Positions 21,005 through 28,465 of a stretch of 41,083 bases of DNA are shown here, one piece after another (positions within the stretch are counted from its first letter, which is position 1; every line of letters begins with the position of its first letter). The notes beneath the pieces are model-generated. The model had not been told where the DNA came from, searched no databases, and saw only the letters and a program-made list of their open reading frames with translations. The stretch lies in the NCBI RefSeq assembly GCF_913776365.1, contig NZ_CAJYMO010000250.1, forward strand, positions 1 to 41,083, in the 5' to 3' direction. The position numbers were made by a program, and so were the translations under genes. This DNA is from an uncultured Chryseobacterium sp. GTDB lineage: Bacteria; Bacteroidota; Bacteroidia; Flavobacteriales; Weeksellaceae.

Positions 21005-21035
21005 TACGGTTCGGAATTCAAAATCTACGGTTCGG
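21005..21035 (+). promoter_or_regulatory. LytTR-type operator pair upstream of the TonB-dependent receptor
   Basis: Two identical copies of TACGGTTCGG start at 21005 and 21026, a 21-bp period or two helical turns. Identity extends over 14 bp (AATCTACGGTTCGG). The downstream copy ends 9 bp before the -33 TTG. Paired direct repeats of about 9 bp with 10-13 bp spacers are the known architecture of LytTR-domain binding sites. The same arrangement appears at 26953 and, in weaker form, at 24055. Confidence 0.75.
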
Positions 21036-21044
21036 TGACAAAAA

Positions 21045-21076
21045 TTGAGTATCCCTGAAATTTCAGCCTACTTTTG
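21045..21076 (+). promoter_or_regulatory. Promoter of the TonB-dependent receptor gene
   Basis: TTG at 21045-21047 and TACTTTTG at 21069-21076 are separated by 21 bp. This promoter overlaps the upstream TTG codon of the longer open frame, so translation must begin at the ATG at 21095. Confidence 0.75.
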
Positions 21077-21094: not shown

Positions 21095-23311
21095 ATGACA
21101 ACAAAATTACTCTTTTTCGTCTCATTTTTTTTGGTAACCCTAAGCTTTGCACAGATTAAGATCTCCGGGAGAGTGACCTATAAAAACAAAGGAATAGGAG
21201 CGGTAAATGTAACCCTGAAGGATACATATGACGGGGCAACCACGGGTACAGACGGGCATTTCTCTTTCGAGACTTCAGAAAAAGGAGATCATACCCTTGT
21301 CTTTACCCATCCGAAATATACAACAGTTGAAAAAAATATTCCTGCCGGAGATCAGGACCTGGTGGTTGATGCTGAAATGAAGGAGCAGGTTGGCGAAATT
21401 GATGCGGTCGTTATCTCCGCAGGATCTATCGAAGCCAGCGACAGGAAAAGGGCAACGGCAGCATTAACACCGATGGATATTTATACGACGGCAGGCTCTC
21501 AGGGACAGACCACCACCGGATATAAGTTCCTGCCGGGTGTCCAGAATGCCGGGGACAGTGAAGGCCTTTTTGTAAGAGGCGGCACAGGAGCCGAAACCAA
21601 GTTTTACATTGACGGAAACCTGGTCAACAACTATTTCAGCAGCTCGGTTCCGGGACTGGCAGGAAGGGAGCGTTTCAATACTTCCATTTTCAAGGGAAGC
21701 GTGTTTTCCAGCGGCGGATATTCCGCATTGTATGGCCAGGCGCTGTCATCGGTCCTGTTGCTGGAAAGCGTGGATATGCCGGACGAAACCTCTTATTCCT
21801 TCAGCCTTTTTCCTTTTTCCTTAGGTGGCGACTATCAGCACCTTAATGAAAAAAAGACATTCAGTTACGGCATCGATGCCAGCATTTCCGACTTAGGGCT
21901 GGTAACGAAGGTCCTGAATTTTGAAACGGATTTTATAAAAGCACCAAGAAATGTTTCAGTCAACGGGAATTTCCGGATCAAAACAAAGTCAGGCGGATTC
22001 CTGAAATACTACGGGAGCTTTGATACCAATTCGCTGACAGTTTCACAACCCAGCCTGGAGCAGAACTATGATGAACAGCAGCCTGCAGTCAACGGGAAAA
22101 ACACCTTCCACAGCCTTACCTATAAAAAGAAAATGGGCCGTTACCTGATGAATCTGGGATCTTCTTTCAGCATCAATAAAAATGACCTGGAAATAGGCAT
22201 TATCAATGCAGGAAACAGATTGGGAAATGTCAATATGAATACGGAAGGCCTGTATTGGAACAGCAGGGCGGTCTTCGAGAGAAAGATCGCTGCCGTAAGC
22301 AACATAAAAGCAGGGTTTGAACTTCTTTCCGAAAACGATAAGACGTCATTTTCCGTACTGGATGCGCCGCAGCAGGAAAATACGGTCCATAATTTTACCT
22401 CAGCCTTATTTGCAGAAACTAATCTGGCTTTCGGGCGCAATTTTTCTGCCAGCTTCGGAATAAGAACGGAAAACTCCGGTGTTCTGAACCAGTGGAACCT
22501 GGCCCCAAGGTTTTCAGCCGCCTATCGTCTTTCGGAAAAATGGGTTACTTCACTGGCCTACGGGATTTTTTACCAGACTCCGGAAGCCAAATATCTGACC
22601 CAAAGCTTTAAGCAGGATTTCCAGAAGGCAACCCATTATATTTTCCAGATCCAGCGGAGTGAAGAGAACAGGACGCTGCGCATGGAAGCTTTTTATAAAA
22701 ATTACAAAAATTTAGTAAAAACTTCAGCTTCAGGTTTCCGGAATATCGTCCTGCCAGGTTACGGAAACGGTTTTGCAAAAGGCGTTGAGGTATTGTGGAG
22801 AGATAAGAAAAGTATCAAAAATGTAGATTACTGGATATCATACTCTTATCTTGACAGTAAAAGGGAATTCCTGAATTATCCTACAGAATTATATCCGAGC
22901 TTTGCTGCAAAGCACAATATTTCCCTTGTGGCAAAGAAGTTCGTTACCCCATGGAAGACAGGTTTTAATTTTTCCTACACCTACACTTCCGGCCGGCCTT
23001 TTTACAATATCATAGCTCAGAACGGGGAGAATGTACTGAAATCGGAAGGCAAGGTGAAAGATTTCAATTCATTGAACTTCAGCCTCAATTATCTGCCGAA
23101 CCTGGGAAAAAAGGATGCCAAAGCATTTACCATACTGGTAGCCGGTATCAATAACCTGCTGGGTAATAAAAATATCTACGGGTACCGGTTTTCTTCCAAC
23201 GGCCAGATGAGTGCACCCGTTCTGCCGGCAGCCCAGACTTTTGTTTATATCGGTGCACTCATCAGTTTCGGGATCGACAAAACCCAGGAAGCCATAGACA
23301 ACAATCTTTAA
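21095..23311 (+). CDS. TonB-dependent outer-membrane receptor with carboxypeptidase-like regulatory N-domain
   Basis: The 738-residue protein has a signal peptide (1-19, cleavage likely LSFA|Q), a CarboxypepD_reg-like beta domain (about 20-110, KISGRVTYKNKGIGAVNVTLK), a plug domain (GVQNAGDSEGLFVRGGTGAETKFYIDGNLV) and an outer-membrane barrel. It is short for this family and there is no SusD-like partner, so a glycan-uptake role is not supported; a small ligand such as a metal chelate is possible. The ATG at 21095 is chosen because the frame further upstream lies inside the promoter. It is followed by a periplasmic helical-repeat protein 44 bp later, and its promoter carries the strongest LytTR-type operator pair in the window. 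Confidence 0.9.
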   Translation: MTTKLLFFVSFFLVTLSFAQIKISGRVTYKNKGIGAVNVTLKDTYDGATTGTDGHFSFETSEKGDHTLVFTHPKYTTVEKNIPAGDQDLVVDAEMKEQVGEIDAVVISAGSIEASDRKRATAALTPMDIYTTAGSQGQTTTGYKFLPGVQNAGDSEGLFVRGGTGAETKFYIDGNLVNNYFSSSVPGLAGRERFNTSIFKGSVFSSGGYSALYGQALSSVLLLESVDMPDETSYSFSLFPFSLGGDYQHLNEKKTFSYGIDASISDLGLVTKVLNFETDFIKAPRNVSVNGNFRIKTKSGGFLKYYGSFDTNSLTVSQPSLEQNYDEQQPAVNGKNTFHSLTYKKKMGRYLMNLGSSFSINKNDLEIGIINAGNRLGNVNMNTEGLYWNSRAVFERKIAAVSNIKAGFELLSENDKTSFSVLDAPQQENTVHNFTSALFAETNLAFGRNFSASFGIRTENSGVLNQWNLAPRFSAAYRLSEKWVTSLAYGIFYQTPEAKYLTQSFKQDFQKATHYIFQIQRSEENRTLRMEAFYKNYKNLVKTSASGFRNIVLPGYGNGFAKGVEVLWRDKKSIKNVDYWISYSYLDSKREFLNYPTELYPSFAAKHNISLVAKKFVTPWKTGFNFSYTYTSGRPFYNIIAQNGENVLKSEGKVKDFNSLNFSLNYLPNLGKKDAKAFTILVAGINNLLGNKNIYGYRFSSNGQMSAPVLPAAQTFVYIGALISFGIDKTQEAIDNNL

Positions 23312-23355: not shown

Positions 23356-24003
23356 ATGAGAAAATACCTTTTAACTTTTGCTTTAGCTTTTACCGGTTTA
23401 ACTGCTTATGCCCAGTCCGGTTACGAAAAAATAATGGCTGAGAAAATCAGTAAGATCGAAACTTCAAAATCCCCGGAAGATTTCCAGGCGCTGGCGAATG
23501 ACTTCCAGAGAATTGCCGATAAGGAGAAAGATAAATGGCAGCCGAGCTACTATACAGCACTTGCCTATATCCAGAAAGGACGGGCGCAGATGCAGGGCGG
23601 CAACAACCAGGCCCTGGAAGAAACGGCAGACCAGGCCCAGAAATTCGTAGATGCGGCCGAGTCCCTTCAACAGGATAATTCCGAGATCCACCTGCTCCAG
23701 AAAATGATCTATTCCCTTAAGATGATGGTAAACCCGATGGAAAGGTTCAGGACTTTCGGGTCGAAAGCTGCAGAAGAACTGCAGAAAGCCGAGCAGCTGG
23801 ACCCTTCGAACCCGAGAGTAACGCTGATCAGGGCTGAAGATACTTTTTATACACCCGAGCAGTTCGGCGGAAGCAAGACGAAAGGGATGGAGCTCTTTAA
23901 GGCAGCCCTGGAAAAGTTCAATACTTTTAAACCGAAAACAGCATTGGACCCAACCTGGGGAAAATCGGAAGCCCAGTATTTCTTAAACAGTGCCGAAAAA
24001 TAA
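23356..24003 (+). CDS. Secreted TPR-like helical-repeat protein
   Basis: The 215-residue protein has a signal peptide (MRKYLLTFALAFTGLTAYA|Q) and then a fully helical, Ala/Gln/Glu-rich chain with TPR-like spacing, for example QPSYYTALAYIQKGRAQMQGG and AAEELQKAEQLDPSNPRVTL. It is probably periplasmic. It lies 44 bp after the receptor gene and ends at a terminator, so the two form an operon. I infer that it assists the receptor or reports on it to the neighbouring kinase, but no specific function is visible. Confidence 0.82.
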   Translation: MRKYLLTFALAFTGLTAYAQSGYEKIMAEKISKIETSKSPEDFQALANDFQRIADKEKDKWQPSYYTALAYIQKGRAQMQGGNNQALEETADQAQKFVDAAESLQQDNSEIHLLQKMIYSLKMMVNPMERFRTFGSKAAEELQKAEQLDPSNPRVTLIRAEDTFYTPEQFGGSKTKGMELFKAALEKFNTFKPKTALDPTWGKSEAQYFLNSAEK

Positions 24004-24054: not shown

Positions 24055-24085
24055 TACCTTTCAGCCATGAAAAGTAACCATTCAG
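24055..24085 (+). promoter_or_regulatory. Degenerate LytTR-type operator pair upstream of the kinase gene
   Basis: TACCTTTCAG (24055-24064) and AACCATTCAG (24076-24085) repeat with the same 21-bp period; the flanking CC extends the match. Each differs from TACCGTTCGG at two or three positions. The second copy ends 10 bp before the -33 TTG, as at the other two sites. This suggests autoregulation with weaker binding. Confidence 0.5.
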
Positions 24086-24095
24086 CCGGAAATAA

Positions 24096-24126
24096 TTGGT
24101 GCGGTACCGAGAATCGGTTAATTTTG
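24096..24126 (+). promoter_or_regulatory. Promoter of the kinase operon
   Basis: TTG at 24096-24098 and TAATTTTG at 24119-24126 are separated by 20 bp. The longer reading frame that opens at 24096 coincides with this promoter, supporting the ATG at 24144 as the start. Confidence 0.7.
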
Positions 24127-24143: not shown

Positions 24144-25460
24144 ATGAAACGTAAAAACCTTATTACCCTCTGCTGGATATCACTGGCTACCTCCATGGTC
24201 TTTTTCCTTGGCTTTACGGATGAAAAGACGCCGGAAAACTTCATGCTTAATCTGGCGGTATGTTCTATGTATTCGTTTGTATTGGGAGCAGGAAACGGCT
24301 TTATCAATGATTTCCTCAATAAAAAATTCCCATGGTCTGAGGCGACTACGAAAAGGGCAGTCATCAGCATCATATCCATCCTTATTGCCAATACGGTGAT
24401 GTTATACTTCTGTAACTATATGAACTTCGTGGTATTTCAGAAAGCGGTAACCACGGAAGAATATTTTTCCGGTAAGTATGGCTTTATCAATTGGTTCACC
24501 ATCAATATAGCCCTGCTGATCTCCGCTTTTCTTCATGCCAAAGGATTTATGGAAGAGCTGAAGAAAACCTCCCGGAAAGAAGTGGTGGAGCAGAAGCTGA
24601 TCGCCAAATCGGCCAATGCCCAGTTTGAGAGCCTTAAAAACCAGCTGGACCCGCATTTCCTTTTCAATTCGCTGAATGTCCTGAGCTCGCTGATCGATGA
24701 AAACCCGAGACAGGCACAGAAGTTTACTGCCTCCATGTCAAAGATTTACAGGTACGTGCTTGAACAGAAAGATAAAGAGCTTGTCACGGTGGAAGATGAA
24801 CTGGAGTTTGCCAAAACTTACTGCGACCTGTTGAAAACGCGGTTTGAAGACAGCGTGGATTTTGTTTTCGGGGTCAGAAAAGAAGAGTACAGGCAATTTG
24901 TAGTGCCGCTCTGCCTGCAGCTGTTGCTGGAAAACTGTATAAAACACAATTTTGCGACTTCATCCAAACCGCTGGTTATAAAAATTTTCTCTGAAAACGA
25001 TACCCTCTGTATCGAAAATAACCTTCAGGTACGCGAGCAGATCAAAGAAAGCTCAGGGATCGGGCTGGCCAACATCGTCCAGCGGTATGCGCTGCTTACC
25101 AGGCGCAACGTCTTCATCGAGAAGTCGGAAGACTACTTCAAAGTGAAGCTTCCGGTGCTTTCTTCCAAACCCAGTACGGTAAGCGTTATACCGGAAAATA
25201 GAAATGAATCCTATGAAAGGGCGCAGAAACGCGTCAAGGAAATAAAAAGCTTCTACAGCAACCTGATTTCATATGGTATTATCATTCCATTTTTAATCAT
25301 TATCAACCTCGTCACAACTCCTGAAAATATCTGGTTCTTTTTCCCGATGCTGGGCTGGGGGATCGGAGTGGTGGCACATGGCATGAGTGTTTTTGCCATC
25401 GGTAAAAAGTGGGAAGACGAAAAGATCAGGCAGATTCTTGAAAAACAAAACAAACGATAA
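24144..25460 (+). CDS. LytS-type sensor histidine kinase with C-terminal 2TM domain
   Basis: The 438-residue membrane protein has four predicted helices in about 1-135. A LytS/YehU-type kinase core follows: the His-kinase motif LDPHFLFNSLNVL with His171, the N-box LLENCIKHN with Asn264, and a G-box SSGIGLANI. A C-terminal 2TM domain (about 355-438) has two hydrophobic segments and the ends ERAQKRVKEIKSFY and WEDEKIRQILE. The 2TM domain is the same type as in three small neighbouring proteins. Its likely partner is the LytTR response regulator at 27722. The start is the ATG at 24144, downstream of the promoter. The next gene begins 11 bp later. Confidence 0.9.
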   Translation: MKRKNLITLCWISLATSMVFFLGFTDEKTPENFMLNLAVCSMYSFVLGAGNGFINDFLNKKFPWSEATTKRAVISIISILIANTVMLYFCNYMNFVVFQKAVTTEEYFSGKYGFINWFTINIALLISAFLHAKGFMEELKKTSRKEVVEQKLIAKSANAQFESLKNQLDPHFLFNSLNVLSSLIDENPRQAQKFTASMSKIYRYVLEQKDKELVTVEDELEFAKTYCDLLKTRFEDSVDFVFGVRKEEYRQFVVPLCLQLLLENCIKHNFATSSKPLVIKIFSENDTLCIENNLQVREQIKESSGIGLANIVQRYALLTRRNVFIEKSEDYFKVKLPVLSSKPSTVSVIPENRNESYERAQKRVKEIKSFYSNLISYGIIIPFLIIINLVTTPENIWFFFPMLGWGIGVVAHGMSVFAIGKKWEDEKIRQILEKQNKR

Positions 25461-25471
25461 ATTTTAAAATC

Positions 25472-25777
25472 ATGGAACCGATCAGCAAAGACGATATCCG
25501 TTATAAAGAAGCCGAAAAGCAGGTAAAAAGGATCAAACAATTCTATGTTTCCCTGTTCATCTATCTTACTGTGAACATTTTTATCCTCATCCTGAATTAC
25601 CGGGAACTGAAACCGGGAGAAACAATATGGCACCTGAAATACTTCTCCCTTCCGCTGTTCTGGGGAATTGCCGTGGTCATCCATGCGATGAGGGCTTTTA
25701 TCCCCGGTTTTATGCTGGGAAGCAAATGGGAAGACCGCAAAATCAGGGAACTGATGGAAAAGGAGAAAATGAAGTAA
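25472..25777 (+). CDS. 2TM-domain protein (copy 1)
   Basis: The 101-residue protein has a charged N-terminal helix (EAEKQVKRIKQFYVSL), two membrane helices and a C-terminal WEDRKIRELMEKEK helix. This is the 2TM domain (Pfam PF13239 type), function unknown. It is nearly identical in layout to the C-terminal domain of the kinase encoded 11 bp upstream, so the two proteins may oligomerise in the membrane. Confidence 0.85.
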   Translation: MEPISKDDIRYKEAEKQVKRIKQFYVSLFIYLTVNIFILILNYRELKPGETIWHLKYFSLPLFWGIAVVIHAMRAFIPGFMLGSKWEDRKIRELMEKEKMK

Positions 25778-25815
25778 GATGCCTGTAAACTGTCAATCCG
25801 TTAAATTAGAATATA

Positions 25816-26385
25816 ATGAACATCCTTCAGATAACTTTTGCCGTTTCCATGGCTGCCTGGTTCCTGAGTGAATTCCTGTACAAAAACATTCTGAAATCCG
25901 GCGAAAACGATCGCAAGGGAAAAGACCGGTCTACCCTGAATTTTCTCTGGATTGCCATTCCGTTTTCCATCACCACCGCTGTCATGGTGTCTGAATACAC
26001 GCGGATTCCCATTACCGGCAGAAACTGGATCCTGTATCTCGGTGAAGCCTTTATCCTCACCGGAATCCTGGTAAGGTACATCATCATCAGGTCGCTGGGA
26101 AGGTATTTTACAGTGGATGTAACCATCCGGAGAGACCACAGCCTGAAAAAGGAAGGATTTTACCGATACCTGAGGCATCCGTCCTATTCATTTTCCCTGC
26201 TGACTTCATTAGGGCTCGGATTGTATTTAAATAACTGGCTGTCACTGGTGTTGGCCTTTCTTCCGCCTTTCATTGCTTTCAGCTACCGGATAGCCATTGA
26301 GGAAAGAACCCTGATTGAACAGTTCGGGGAAGAATACCTGGAGTACGGGAAAAAGACGAAGAAGCTGATTCCTTTCGTATACTAA
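25816..26385 (+). CDS. Isoprenylcysteine carboxyl methyltransferase-like membrane protein
   Basis: The 189-residue protein has about five membrane helices and the ICMT/PEMT signature GFYRYLRHPSY followed by EERTLIEQFGEEYLEYGKK. In eukaryotes ICMT methylates prenylated cysteines; bacterial homologs act on unknown, probably lipid or small-molecule, substrates. It is 38 bp after the first 2TM gene and seems to be the last gene of the kinase operon. Whether it modifies a component of the sensory system is unknown. Confidence 0.85.
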   Translation: MNILQITFAVSMAAWFLSEFLYKNILKSGENDRKGKDRSTLNFLWIAIPFSITTAVMVSEYTRIPITGRNWILYLGEAFILTGILVRYIIIRSLGRYFTVDVTIRRDHSLKKEGFYRYLRHPSYSFSLLTSLGLGLYLNNWLSLVLAFLPPFIAFSYRIAIEERTLIEQFGEEYLEYGKKTKKLIPFVY

Positions 26386-26390
26386 TACTA

Positions 26391-26418
26391 AGATCCCGCG
26401 GATTTGTAACCGTGAGAT
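26391..26418. repeat. REP-like repeat, copy 1 (downstream of ICMT-like gene)
   Basis: AGATCCCGCGGATTTGTAAC and the following CGTGAGAT match the copy at 26908-26936 in the same orientation, with one substitution and one missing base. The two copies bracket the XRE regulator gene. Confidence 0.6.
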
Positions 26419-26445
26419 GTTATTTTGCAATCCTCAGGTTTCTCA

Positions 26446-26907
26446 TCATTTCCGGAGATATTCCTCCAGTTTAGCCATCATTTCCTCTTTTTCTTTCAGC
26501 ATTCTTTCATACAGCGCAATTTTCTCCTCGTGCAGCTGAAGAAGCTTGTCAACCGGATGGTAGGTATTGTTTACCGTATCATTCATAATAGGTAAGGAAC
26601 TGTTGTTAAATGTATTGGCTATGATATTGAATGCCTGTTCTTCCTCTAGTCGTTCGAGAGCTTCTATCGGGACATTCATAATTCCGGCAATTTTTTCAAG
26701 CATGTCCTTTTCAATGGTTTCCCTCTGTTCCAGAAGGGATATTTTCTGCTGGCTGCAGTTGAGGTCGTCAGCCAGTGTTTCCTGCTTAATGTTCAGCATT
26801 TCCCGGAACCTTCTGATGTTCCTGCCCTGATGTATTTTTTTGTCCTGTATATTTGTGTATGTAAAGAACAAATATAAGTAAAAAGTTTCATGGAATTTTT
26901 TCAACAA
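26446..26907 (-). CDS. XRE-family helix-turn-helix regulator
   Basis: The 153-residue frame contains an HTH of XRE type (about 29-88: NIRRFREMLNIKQETLADDL, then CSQQKISLLEQ) and a C-terminal coiled coil (HEEKIALYERMLKEKEEMMA) likely for dimerisation. The start is unclear. A TATATTTG -7-like element lies inside the first codons on the minus strand, and the first 20 or so residues (MLKKFHETFYLYLFFTYTNI) are not typical; a non-ATG start nearer the HTH is possible. It runs opposite to all its neighbours and is enclosed by a pair of direct repeats. Its target is unknown. Confidence 0.75.
   Translation of the reverse strand: MLKKFHETFYLYLFFTYTNIQDKKIHQGRNIRRFREMLNIKQETLADDLNCSQQKISLLEQRETIEKDMLEKIAGIMNVPIEALERLEEEQAFNIIANTFNNSSLPIMNDTVNNTYHPVDKLLQLHEEKIALYERMLKEKEEMMAKLEEYLRK
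26869..26876 (-). promoter_or_regulatory. Candidate -7 element for the XRE gene
   Basis: The minus strand reads TATATTTG. If used, transcription would start downstream of the ATG at 26907, which conflicts with that start codon. Confidence 0.3.
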
Positions 26908-26936
26908 AGATCCCGCAGATTTGTAATCCGTGAGAT
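26908..26936. repeat. REP-like repeat, copy 2 (upstream of XRE gene)
   Basis: AGATCCCGCAGATTTGTAAT followed by CCGTGAGAT is the second copy. Together with flanking bases it folds into an imperfect hairpin closed by AAAGATC and GATCTTT. Confidence 0.6.
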
Positions 26937-26952
26937 CTTTATCTACAATTCT

Positions 26953-26983
26953 TACCGTTCGGTACCGTTTTTCTACGGTTCGG
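26953..26983 (+). promoter_or_regulatory. LytTR-type operator pair upstream of the second 2TM gene
   Basis: TACCGTTCGG (26953-26962) and TACGGTTCGG (26974-26983) again have a 21-bp period. The 9-mer ACCGTTCGG fits the published LytTR consensus [TA][AC][CA]GTTN[AG][TG] at every position. The downstream copy ends 10 bp before the -33 TTG. Confidence 0.75.
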
Positions 26984-26993
26984 TAAGGTAAAG

Positions 26994-27025
26994 TTGATTT
27001 GAGGGAAGGACCTGATGTACATTTG
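26994..27025 (+). promoter_or_regulatory. Promoter of the 2TM/LytTR operon
   Basis: TTG at 26994-26996 and TACATTTG at 27018-27025 are separated by 21 bp, the same geometry as the receptor promoter. Confidence 0.75.
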
Positions 27026-27065
27026 TATCAACAAAAACAAACAATTCATCTTTAAAACAAAAAAT

Positions 27066-27359
27066 ATGGAAACTTTCATCAACAAAGACACCCAGGCTTA
27101 CGAAAAAGCGGCAAGAAGAGTAAAAGAACTTAAAGGATTCTATGGAAATTTAACTTCCTATCTCCTGGTTATTTCTTTTTTAGTCATCCTGAACCTCATT
27201 ACTTCACCAGGTTACCTGTGGTTCATCTGGCCGATGCTGGGATGGGGAATCGGTGTTGCCGCACACGCTGCCGGAACTTTTGGAATCGGTAAAGACTGGG
27301 AAGAAAAAAAGATCAGAGAACTGATGGACGAAGAAAGAAAAAATACCAGGGCATTATAA
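27066..27359 (+). CDS. 2TM-domain protein (copy 2)
   Basis: The 97-residue protein has the 2TM layout: YEKAARRVKELKGFYGNL, two membrane helices around FLVILNLITSPGYLWF and PMLGWGIGVAAH, then WEEKKIRELMDEE. It is the closest relative of the kinase's C-terminal domain, sharing PMLGWGIGV. The start is the ATG at 27066; the frame upstream lies in the promoter. It is the first gene behind a LytTR-type operator pair, so it is probably a target of the neighbouring regulator. It may feed back on the kinase. Confidence 0.85.
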   Translation: METFINKDTQAYEKAARRVKELKGFYGNLTSYLLVISFLVILNLITSPGYLWFIWPMLGWGIGVAAHAAGTFGIGKDWEEKKIRELMDEERKNTRAL

Positions 27360-27388
27360 ATTAAATCAACTTAAAAAAACAGAATATC

Positions 27389-27664
27389 ATGGACTACAAT
27401 CAGGCACAGCAAAGAGTAAAAGACCTTAAAAAATTCTATAAAGGCGTTTTATGGTTTTTCATCGTGGCTTTCATTATATTTTTTGATGATATTTTCGAAA
27501 AGGGAATCTTCAGTTTTTCTTTATGGGACGGATCCATCATTCTCAGCATCTGGGCGGTTATCCTGATCTCAAGGGCCATAAAGCTTTTTCTTCTGGATGC
27601 TGAATGGGAGAGGGGAATTATGGAAAAGGAAATGCGCAAGACAAAGAAGCCGCTGCAGTTTTAG
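27389..27664 (+). CDS. 2TM-domain protein (copy 3)
   Basis: The 91-residue protein has the N-terminal QAQQRVKDLKKFYKGV helix, two hydrophobic segments and the C-terminal WERGIMEKEMRKTK helix. It is the most diverged of the set and lacks the PMLGWGIGV motif. It lies 29 bp after copy 2 and 57 bp before the LytTR regulator, and the three genes probably form one operon. Confidence 0.82.
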   Translation: MDYNQAQQRVKDLKKFYKGVLWFFIVAFIIFFDDIFEKGIFSFSLWDGSIILSIWAVILISRAIKLFLLDAEWERGIMEKEMRKTKKPLQF

Positions 27665-27721
27665 GATCCGCTGAATTTAAGTATTTTTAATCCCTAATTT
27701 TACCCGAAAAAATAAACAGCA

Positions 27722-28465
27722 ATGATCAGAACTGTGATTATCGAAGACGAAAGGCCGGCTTCAAGGAAACTGGAAAGAATGCTTGGTGAATTTCCTGATA
27801 TCGAAGTGGTTGCCAAAATAGAATCTGTGGAAGAAGGCATCCGGTGGTTTTCAGACCAGCCCCATCCGCAGCTCATCTTTTCGGATATTGTACTGGGAGA
27901 CGGCCTGTCATTCGATATTTTTGAAAAAGTTCCTACCAAAGGCTTCATCATTTACACTACGGCTTTTGATCAGTATACGCTGAAAGCTTTTAAACTGAAC
28001 AGCATCGATTATCTTTTGAAACCGATTATGGAAGAAGACCTTTCAGGAGCCGTTGAGAAGTTCAGGTCATTCATCCCGTCAGACAGCTCAGAAAATTCCG
28101 GGGAGATCAAGAATCTCATCAAAAGCGAGAGAACAATACTCTCCAGGATTCTTGTGAAGATAGGATATAACCTTAAAATTGTACAGACGCATGAAATCAG
28201 CTGTTTTTTCAGCGAAAACAAGATTGTATACCTGCAGACCCGTGAGCGGGCTTATCCGTCGGATTTTACCCTTGATGAGCTGGAAGAGGTATTGGATGAA
28301 AAGAAGTTTTTCAGGGTCAACCGGCAGTTTATGATCAGTTCGGATTATATCAAGAATATCCATACTTCACCCAATTACAAAGTGGAACTGGAGTTTCAGC
28401 CGCAGGAAGAGATTAGCGTCAGCCGTGACCGGGTGAAGGATTTCAAGGACTGGCTGGTAAGCTGA
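27722..28465 (+). CDS. LytTR-family response regulator
   Basis: The 247-residue protein has a receiver domain (about 1-120) with acidic pair E8/D9, phospho-acceptor Asp55 in LIFSDIVLGD, and Lys100 in YLLKP. A LytTR DNA-binding domain (about 140-247) follows, with ETHEISCFFSE-type strands and FFRVNRQFMISSDYI. It is the natural partner of the LytS-type kinase at 24144, and its DNA-binding family predicts exactly the kind of paired direct repeats found at 21005, 26953 and 24055. No terminator was seen directly after it. Confidence 0.92.
   Translation: MIRTVIIEDERPASRKLERMLGEFPDIEVVAKIESVEEGIRWFSDQPHPQLIFSDIVLGDGLSFDIFEKVPTKGFIIYTTAFDQYTLKAFKLNSIDYLLKPIMEEDLSGAVEKFRSFIPSDSSENSGEIKNLIKSERTILSRILVKIGYNLKIVQTHEISCFFSENKIVYLQTRERAYPSDFTLDELEEVLDEKKFFRVNRQFMISSDYIKNIHTSPNYKVELEFQPQEEISVSRDRVKDFKDWLVS

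Follow-up and report, generated by a model that had tools for sequence, protein, structure and literature searches.

Why should a single LytS/LytTR two-component locus carry four copies of one small membrane domain, one fused to the kinase and three standing free? The question is raised by a stretch of 41,083 nucleotides from an uncultured Chryseobacterium sp. (NCBI RefSeq assembly GCF_913776365.1, contig NZ_CAJYMO010000250.1), here called the window, in which the genes of a TonB-dependent receptor, a secreted HusA-type protein, a kinase with a fused 2TM domain, the first free 2TM protein, an ICMT-type methyltransferase, the second and third free 2TM proteins and the LytTR response regulator all lie, in this order, on one strand. 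One operator heads the receptor-HusA group, the kinase group and the 2TM-LytTR group, and because of this we consider it fairly likely that the LytTR protein switches on both its own circuit and a predicted haem/porphyrin uptake pair, and that the free 2TM proteins tune the kinase through its 2TM domain. What can be read directly are the domains, the gene order, three operators placed before promoter elements, and the operator kept on receptor-husA pairs that lie apart from the locus.

The operator has the form of a tandem direct repeat, i.e. 9 bp, a 12 bp spacer and again 9 bp (a period of 21 bases), upstream of a promoter. This control site is new here. The operator pair of the original prediction is confirmed and is present in three places, starting at 21005, 24055 and 26953. 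Operator 1 (21005..21037, plus strand like operators 2 and 3) scores 34.0 bits with a position weight matrix (PWM) and E 1.8e-5 with R1, the model used for whole-genome scans, which was trained partly on the three window sites, operator 1 included; it stands before the receptor gene (21095..23311). Operator 2 (24055..24087; 17.0 bits, R1 E 0.005, in R1 training) precedes the kinase gene (24144..25460), and operator 3 (26953..26985; 36.8 bits, R1 E 0.012, in R1 training) precedes the gene of the free 2TM protein b (27066..27359). A TAnnTTTG element follows each of them, at 21069-21076, 24119-24126 and 27018-27025, and downstream of operator 3 there is also a TTG at 26994. TAnnTTTG together with a TTG-like -33 box is what we take to be the Bacteroidota promoter. 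For the receptor there is an in-frame ATG at 21095, downstream of the promoter element; a TTG at 21074 falls within that element. The arrangement matches the LytTR-type operator form as described in passages of PMC6193735, i.e. direct repeats of about 9 bp with a 12 bp spacer, directly upstream of the promoter.

Is the operator a property of the window or of the locus in general? An operator is present before the 27066-type gene (2TM b) in 66 of 71 upstream regions. The PWM was trained solely on these sites and then applied to the other genes, leaving out G025a and genes with less than 60 nucleotides upstream. Sites above 12 bits, a score almost never reached in shuffled sequences, were found before the receptor in 63/68 cases, before the kinase in 67/89 and before 2TM b in 66/70 (the training set), so that the claim of a free 2TM copy behind the operator is borne out. 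Such sites were detected before HusA in 4/69 cases and before genes labelled 2TM a in 4/101 (2TM genes preceding the kinase), and in none of the 28 AraC, 66 ICMT, 79 2TM c and 91 LytTR upstream regions. The TAnnTTTG element lies 31-32 nucleotides past the site in 65/66 2TM b, 58/63 receptor and 67/67 kinase sites (background 2.4%); at this place it is found after none of the four sites before kinase-preceding 2TM genes and after two of the four before HusA. A few sites are hidden inside open reading frames because the starts of some genes were placed too far upstream. The 1.24 Mb of locus DNA contain 235 PWM matches above 10 bits, 234 of them on the locus strand, and 15 are a coding artefact of Y251. 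Y251 was rejected as an operator target: 11 of 55 regions exceed 12 bits, but the matches fall inside the opposite-strand neighbouring coding gene, at one place.

On the genome scale, R1 found no fourth site in the source genome at E<=0.05; the assembly is 91% complete, and genome-wide counts hold within that. A site at E 0.08 (G000:C178) was judged a chance match, as it overlaps a reading frame and is doubtful as a promoter. Among 12 congeners, 29 of the 30 matches at E<=0.01 are within the locus, the single outlier being in G007, and none of eight same-order genomes without 2TM has an R1 site at this threshold. Five of the 13 congener matches that lie outside the locus at E<=0.1 were inspected as additional targets (two from G007 and one apiece from G005, G010 and G020) and were taken as lineage-specific or chance. 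The G007 outlier (L199 site 4906) stands before a gene for 352 amino acids, behind which comes a lipoprotein-like gene. In G005 a weaker site (L202 site 3417) precedes a lipoprotein-like gene similar to that of G007, and an operator-like site of G010 outside the main locus (L201 site 3743) has the TAnnTTTG element.

In 15 named genomes the fetched 2TM locus contains no receptor-HusA pair. Each of them has a HusA match in another place, which is partial in G192 and G198, and in nine genomes an R1 match at E<=0.05 stands directly before husA or the receptor-husA pair. Twelve of the 15 genomes yielded one complete receptor-husA pair each (G192 and G198 are not among the regions), and at a PWM threshold of 5 bits a site was found before the receptor in 12/12 (9.8-30.7 bits; 10 above 12) and before husA in 11/12 (7.8-28.2 bits; 8 above 12). 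In eleven of the genomes the pair shares a contig with the 2TM locus, at a distance of about 10 to 90 kb; in G195 adjacency is ambiguous owing to a contig break. No site above 5 bits was seen before four HusA genes that have no receptor match; these come from three regions, among them G199 with two such genes and the second G197 region. In G170, a member of another family, the only two R1 sites at E<=0.01 stand before DUF2141-husA and DUF2141-kinase genes, which are separated by 2.2 Mb along the contig (0.38 Mb should the contig be circular). The predicted shared regulon is the most solid result of this work. DUF2141 genes occur behind the operator, just before HusA or the kinase, in loci of family f3 (L165 7308-7736, L240 5677-6105, L166 3228-3635).

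What does this regulon deliver? The HusA-type protein (23356..24003, plus strand) is a secreted, helical, TPR-like protein according to profile, fold comparison and structure model. Its model has a predicted local distance difference test score (pLDDT) of 91 and finds HusA, the haemophore of Porphyromonas gingivalis, as its best PDB match (E 7e-11, TM 0.76/0.81, 31% identity), and a profile built from the protein's own family matches the HusA chain 6bqs with E 2.2e-40 over 194 profile positions. It is a HusA homologue by sequence as well as by fold, and a TonB-dependent receptor gene is adjacent. Passages of PMC6173696 and PMC10100897 describe a groove in which HusA binds haem and porphyrins, with transfer to the receptor HusB as the presumed next step. 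At the corresponding groove positions, with a residue offset derived by hand from the profile alignment, 23 of 32 aligned rows have V at V124, 27 have an aromatic residue at W130, 28 have F or Y at Y164, and 27 have M instead of L at L123. Judging from HusA homology, the ligand may be a porphyrin.

The receptor itself has CarboxypepD_reg and Plug domains (Pfam) and is HusB-like by position. Since the TPR-like protein is HusA-like, the pair looks like an uptake system and an output rather than a sensor. The receptor as sensor was rejected as the leading reading, as the Pfam scan of the receptor did not match an STN signalling domain and the receptor carries the operator. The original prediction had included the receptor and the TPR-like protein in an outer-membrane-to-nucleoid circuit; they do belong to the same predicted regulon, but as an output, and no sign of inward signalling was seen. 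The solved-structure search by sequence returned nothing for the receptor, no match for the 2TM profile and a single histidine kinase chain, 6swj, for the kinase. The source genome also has a second, partial HusA-like match (G000:C318:93729-94085, L241), with no operator match at E<=5 on its contig.

As to the two-component pair, according to Pfam, hydropathy and a structure model, the LytS-type histidine kinase consists of an N-terminal transmembrane bundle, a catalytic part with His_kinase and ATPase domains, and a C-terminal 2TM domain (residues 358-432, PF13239 92.7 bits). It has an H-box and an N-box, with the phospho-acceptor H171 and N264 of the N-box invariant in 39/39 aligned kinase orthologues. 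The response regulator (27722..28465, plus strand) combines a receiver (PF00072, 35.9 bits) with a LytTR DNA-binding domain (PF04397, 75 bits).

Around this pair the four predicted 2TM domains are indeed present at the predicted gene positions, and all of them pass the curated cut-off of PF13239. Besides the kinase domain these are the free proteins a (25472..25777, 78.6 bits), b (103.1 bits) and c (27389..27664, 39.1 bits, the weakest match), all on the plus strand. In the assembly only these four PF13239 matches were found, as opposed to eight LytTR domains. Of the free proteins, 2TM b is nearest to the kinase's own domain (48% identity), and 2TM c is the most diverged (21% identity to 2TM b). 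That three free 2TM genes lie between kinase and regulator is correct as far as their coordinates go, but an ICMT gene (from 25816) and an opposite-strand HTH gene (from 26446), which had gone unmentioned, lie there as well. The three sequence motifs said to be common to the 2TM proteins are shared less generally: RVKxxKxFY is found in three of four domains (the 25472 protein has Q instead of R) and WExxKIR also in three, whereas PMLGWGIGV is confined to the kinase and the 27066 protein; the 27389 protein is without the last two.

How general is the association? In 24 Chryseobacterium genomes (source genome included) all 96 PF13239 matches are at one locus, beside a LytTR gene, and this is one of the 6 to 24 LytTR genes per genome. 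G013 has five matches, two of which are apparently pieces of one interrupted copy. Ten of the congeners have the same LytTR sequence as named loci, from which the genus is taken to be Chryseobacterium. In other families of the order, one genome out of 15 has 2TM (family f3), with four copies at a similar locus and one elsewhere. A scan of named genomes gave 79 loci (Chryseobacterium, Epilithonimonas, Kaistella, Elizabethkingia, Soonwooa, Cloacibacterium, Frigoriflavimonas, Flavobacterium and others); it used best matches only and is hence skewed to close relatives. Exactly the order receptor, HusA-type gene, kinase:2TM, 2TM, ICMT, 2TM, 2TM, LytTR is found in 39 of the 79. Removal of 10 named loci that duplicate G genomes by LytTR sequence left 94 non-redundant loci, of which 91 have the fused kinase:2TM gene. 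Downstream of it there is at least one free 2TM gene in 90 of these 91, two in 88 and three in 69; overall, a locus has between one and four free copies. The remaining three loci are without a kinase: L096 is cut by a contig end, and in L098 and L115 none is found within the fetched DNA. A tree of the 2TM domains, in which several groups are poorly supported, sorts them largely by position across genera, which suggests that the copies are old paralogues and did not arise by recent duplication.

The picture widens in a class-level sample, where 2TM is found in 29 of 149 genomes, 25 of them above the cut-off. The expected linkage of 2TM genes to LytS/LytTR genes is tight in Chryseobacterium, its sister genera and f3, so that the first refuting condition of the original prediction, no such linkage in other genomes, does not apply. 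Outside the fused-kinase loci, however, only one of 28 class-level places adjoins LytS/LytTR. This is G099, which has an unfused 2TM-LytS-LytTR run with a site of 13.8 bits (PWM) about 36 nucleotides before the 2TM gene. Six of the 28 places adjoin a membrane protein and an HTH_34-type winged-helix gene; the HTH_34-type model was built from L176, L209 and L212, which match by construction, the independent matches being L210, L211 and L175, and Pfam was run on two of the six loci. In L209 and L212 the receptor-HusA, multi-transmembrane protein (about 193 amino acids), HTH_34 and 2TM genes are in one run, and in L176 HusA (without receptor), membrane protein, HTH_34 and 2TM are likewise in one run. 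No operator was detected at the promoter of these three, which come from other Bacteroidota families. It is possible that the HTH_34 runs are a second wiring of the same uptake genes, and their HusA content suggests that 2TM genes accompany HusA-type genes under more than one kind of regulator. In the fetched DNA of 20 of the 28 places, neither HusA nor HTH_34-type, LytTR or LytS motif was found.

How could such a circuit work? We infer that the gene groups are operons and that the cognate LytTR protein binds the operator; given the position of the sites, binding would activate transcription. A precedent is found in the LytTR regulatory systems (LRS) HdrRM and BrsRM of Streptococcus mutans, where, in passages of PMC6193735, such direct repeats directly upstream of the promoter lead to self-activation. 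The regulator would activate the receptor-HusA group, the kinase group and its own 2TM-LytTR group, which probably makes the circuit a switch that amplifies itself, and every round of activation would add more free 2TM protein. The free copies would then join or compete with the 2TM domain of the kinase, which is the simplest role for them because the kinase carries the same domain, and most likely their effect would be that of a brake whose strength grows as the output increases. We speculate, much more tentatively, that the free copies join a 2TM oligomer of the kinase, titrate it and so set a threshold for porphyrin uptake, and that the domain works with other transcription factors (HTH_34) elsewhere in Bacteroidota, which would make 2TM a plug-in membrane regulator for HusA-type uptake in general.

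Does the 2TM protein act on the kinase at all? The free 2TM proteins might instead hold the LytTR regulator at the membrane, as the membrane inhibitors of LRS do, without acting on the kinase. That 2TM b, 2TM c and LytTR form one operator-headed gene group in the window would suit this well, since in LRS, as given in parts of PMC6193735, inhibitor and regulator share one autoregulated operon with 9-12-9 repeats near -35. So would L098 and L115, which combine 2TM and LytTR without a kinase in the fetched DNA, and the 2TM genes beside HTH_34 regulators, near which the LytS motif was not found. We nevertheless consider it unlikely, as the kinase is pointed out as the partner both by the fusion in 91/94 loci, with L096, one of the exceptions, cut by a contig end, and by G099, where an unfused 2TM gene lies beside a LytS without 2TM.

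It is even less likely, in our view, that the 2TM proteins are inner-membrane parts of HusA-type uptake or ligand sensing, whose state is read by the kinase copy. Their place in one run with receptor-HusA (L209, L212) or HusA (L176) and a CarboxypepD/Plug receptor that adjoins a lone 2TM gene in L168 speak for such a role. However, the 15 named genomes discussed above keep 2TM and LytTR without the receptor-HusA pair in the fetched locus (G195 being ambiguous), so 2TM stays with the regulators and not with the transport genes, and 20 of the 28 lone 2TM places are without any of the HusA, HTH_34-type, LytTR or LytS signatures in the fetched DNA. Finally, the variation from one to four free copies, the divergence of 2TM c and the apparently interrupted G013 copy might suggest that the extra copies are role-less leftovers of tandem duplication, but this is highly improbable given paralogue classes that largely track position across genera, several groups of low support notwithstanding, and an operator before 2TM b in 66/71 upstream regions.

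A number of observations speak against the kinase-tuning circuit proposed here. On the protein side, 2TM c has lost two of the three motifs, the kinase model is of modest overall confidence (mean pLDDT 76.5, predicted TM-score 0.42), and the groove residues of HusA are kept in part only; the role of the 2TM proteins is argued from the shared domain, co-occurrence and gene order. As to the loci, L098 and L115 have 2TM and LytTR with no kinase within reach, and the two G199 HusA genes that have no receptor match also have no site. The operator, too, is imperfect: 22 of 89 kinases are without a site above 12 bits, the G099 site is not among the R1 matches at E<=0.1, and in two f3 loci a further match lies inside the receptor gene (L057 17.0 bits, L166 15.4 bits). 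As the Y251 matches show, coding sequence can imitate it. In the 12 congeners 13 of 45 R1 matches at E<=0.1 are outside the locus, above the E-value expectation, and there are two marginal R1 matches (E about 0.05) in genomes without 2TM.

Two neighbouring genes deserve mention. The ICMT/PEMT-family membrane methyltransferase gene (25816..26385, plus strand, Pfam) follows 2TM a in the same direction. It is part of the kinase gene group in most Chryseobacterium loci, stands directly before LytTR in some others and is absent from some relatives; it is conceivable that the enzyme acts on 2TM or on lipid. The HTH_3 regulator gene (26446-26907, minus strand), which separates the ICMT gene from operator 3, appears to have entered the circuit recently, as no counterpart was found in the fetched loci of 23 congeners.

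If the proposal is true, it gives a role to the Pfam 2TM domain, names a regulator and an operator for HusA-type uptake genes in Flavobacteriales, and describes a two-component system that supplies the membrane domain of its kinase in free form as well. The operator allows the regulon to be predicted in related genomes, and the idea can be tested now. Among the matches listed for the open-licence literature there was no paper that ties 2TM or LytS/LytTR to HusA-type genes. In the main text of a Flavobacterium psychrophilum haem paper none of the terms LytTR, HusA, two-component and histidine kinase occurs, and a text match to '2tm domain' in a PSP paper is a generic phrase. In Flavobacterium johnsoniae, Table 2 of PMC10197871 records mutations in one LytTR/histidine kinase pair (FJOH_RS09515/RS09520) in five out of five coevolved lines. 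The neighbouring tags in that table suggest that this kinase and LytTR gene are directly adjacent, unlike those of the window.

It is instructive to compare the window locus with known systems. It resembles Lia-type systems, where LiaF acts with LiaS, in that a kinase with few extramembrane parts is combined with a separate membrane modulator and the system is autoregulated; the protein families are different, and in the window the kinase itself carries the putative modulator domain as well. The P. gingivalis Hus system, as far as described in parts of PMC6173696 and PMC10100897, shares the HusA homologue beside a CarboxypepD/Plug TonB-dependent receptor. The likeness to HusB is by position, and the common operator ties the window pair to LytS/LytTR and 2TM, unlike in P. 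gingivalis. With LRS, going by the same passages as above, the locus shares a LytTR regulator, a membrane partner encoded in one gene group with it, 9 bp repeats that are separated by a 12 bp spacer and lie directly upstream of the promoter, and predicted self-activation. Classification as LRS, i.e. as a minimal pair of regulator and membrane inhibitor, is ruled out by the conserved LytS kinase and the receiver domain, and the membrane partner, a putative inhibitor, is here a 2TM protein. The locus is thus described best as a LytS/LytTR system linked to a HusA-type uptake pair, with self-activation predicted as in LRS and a putative membrane partner that the system itself produces.

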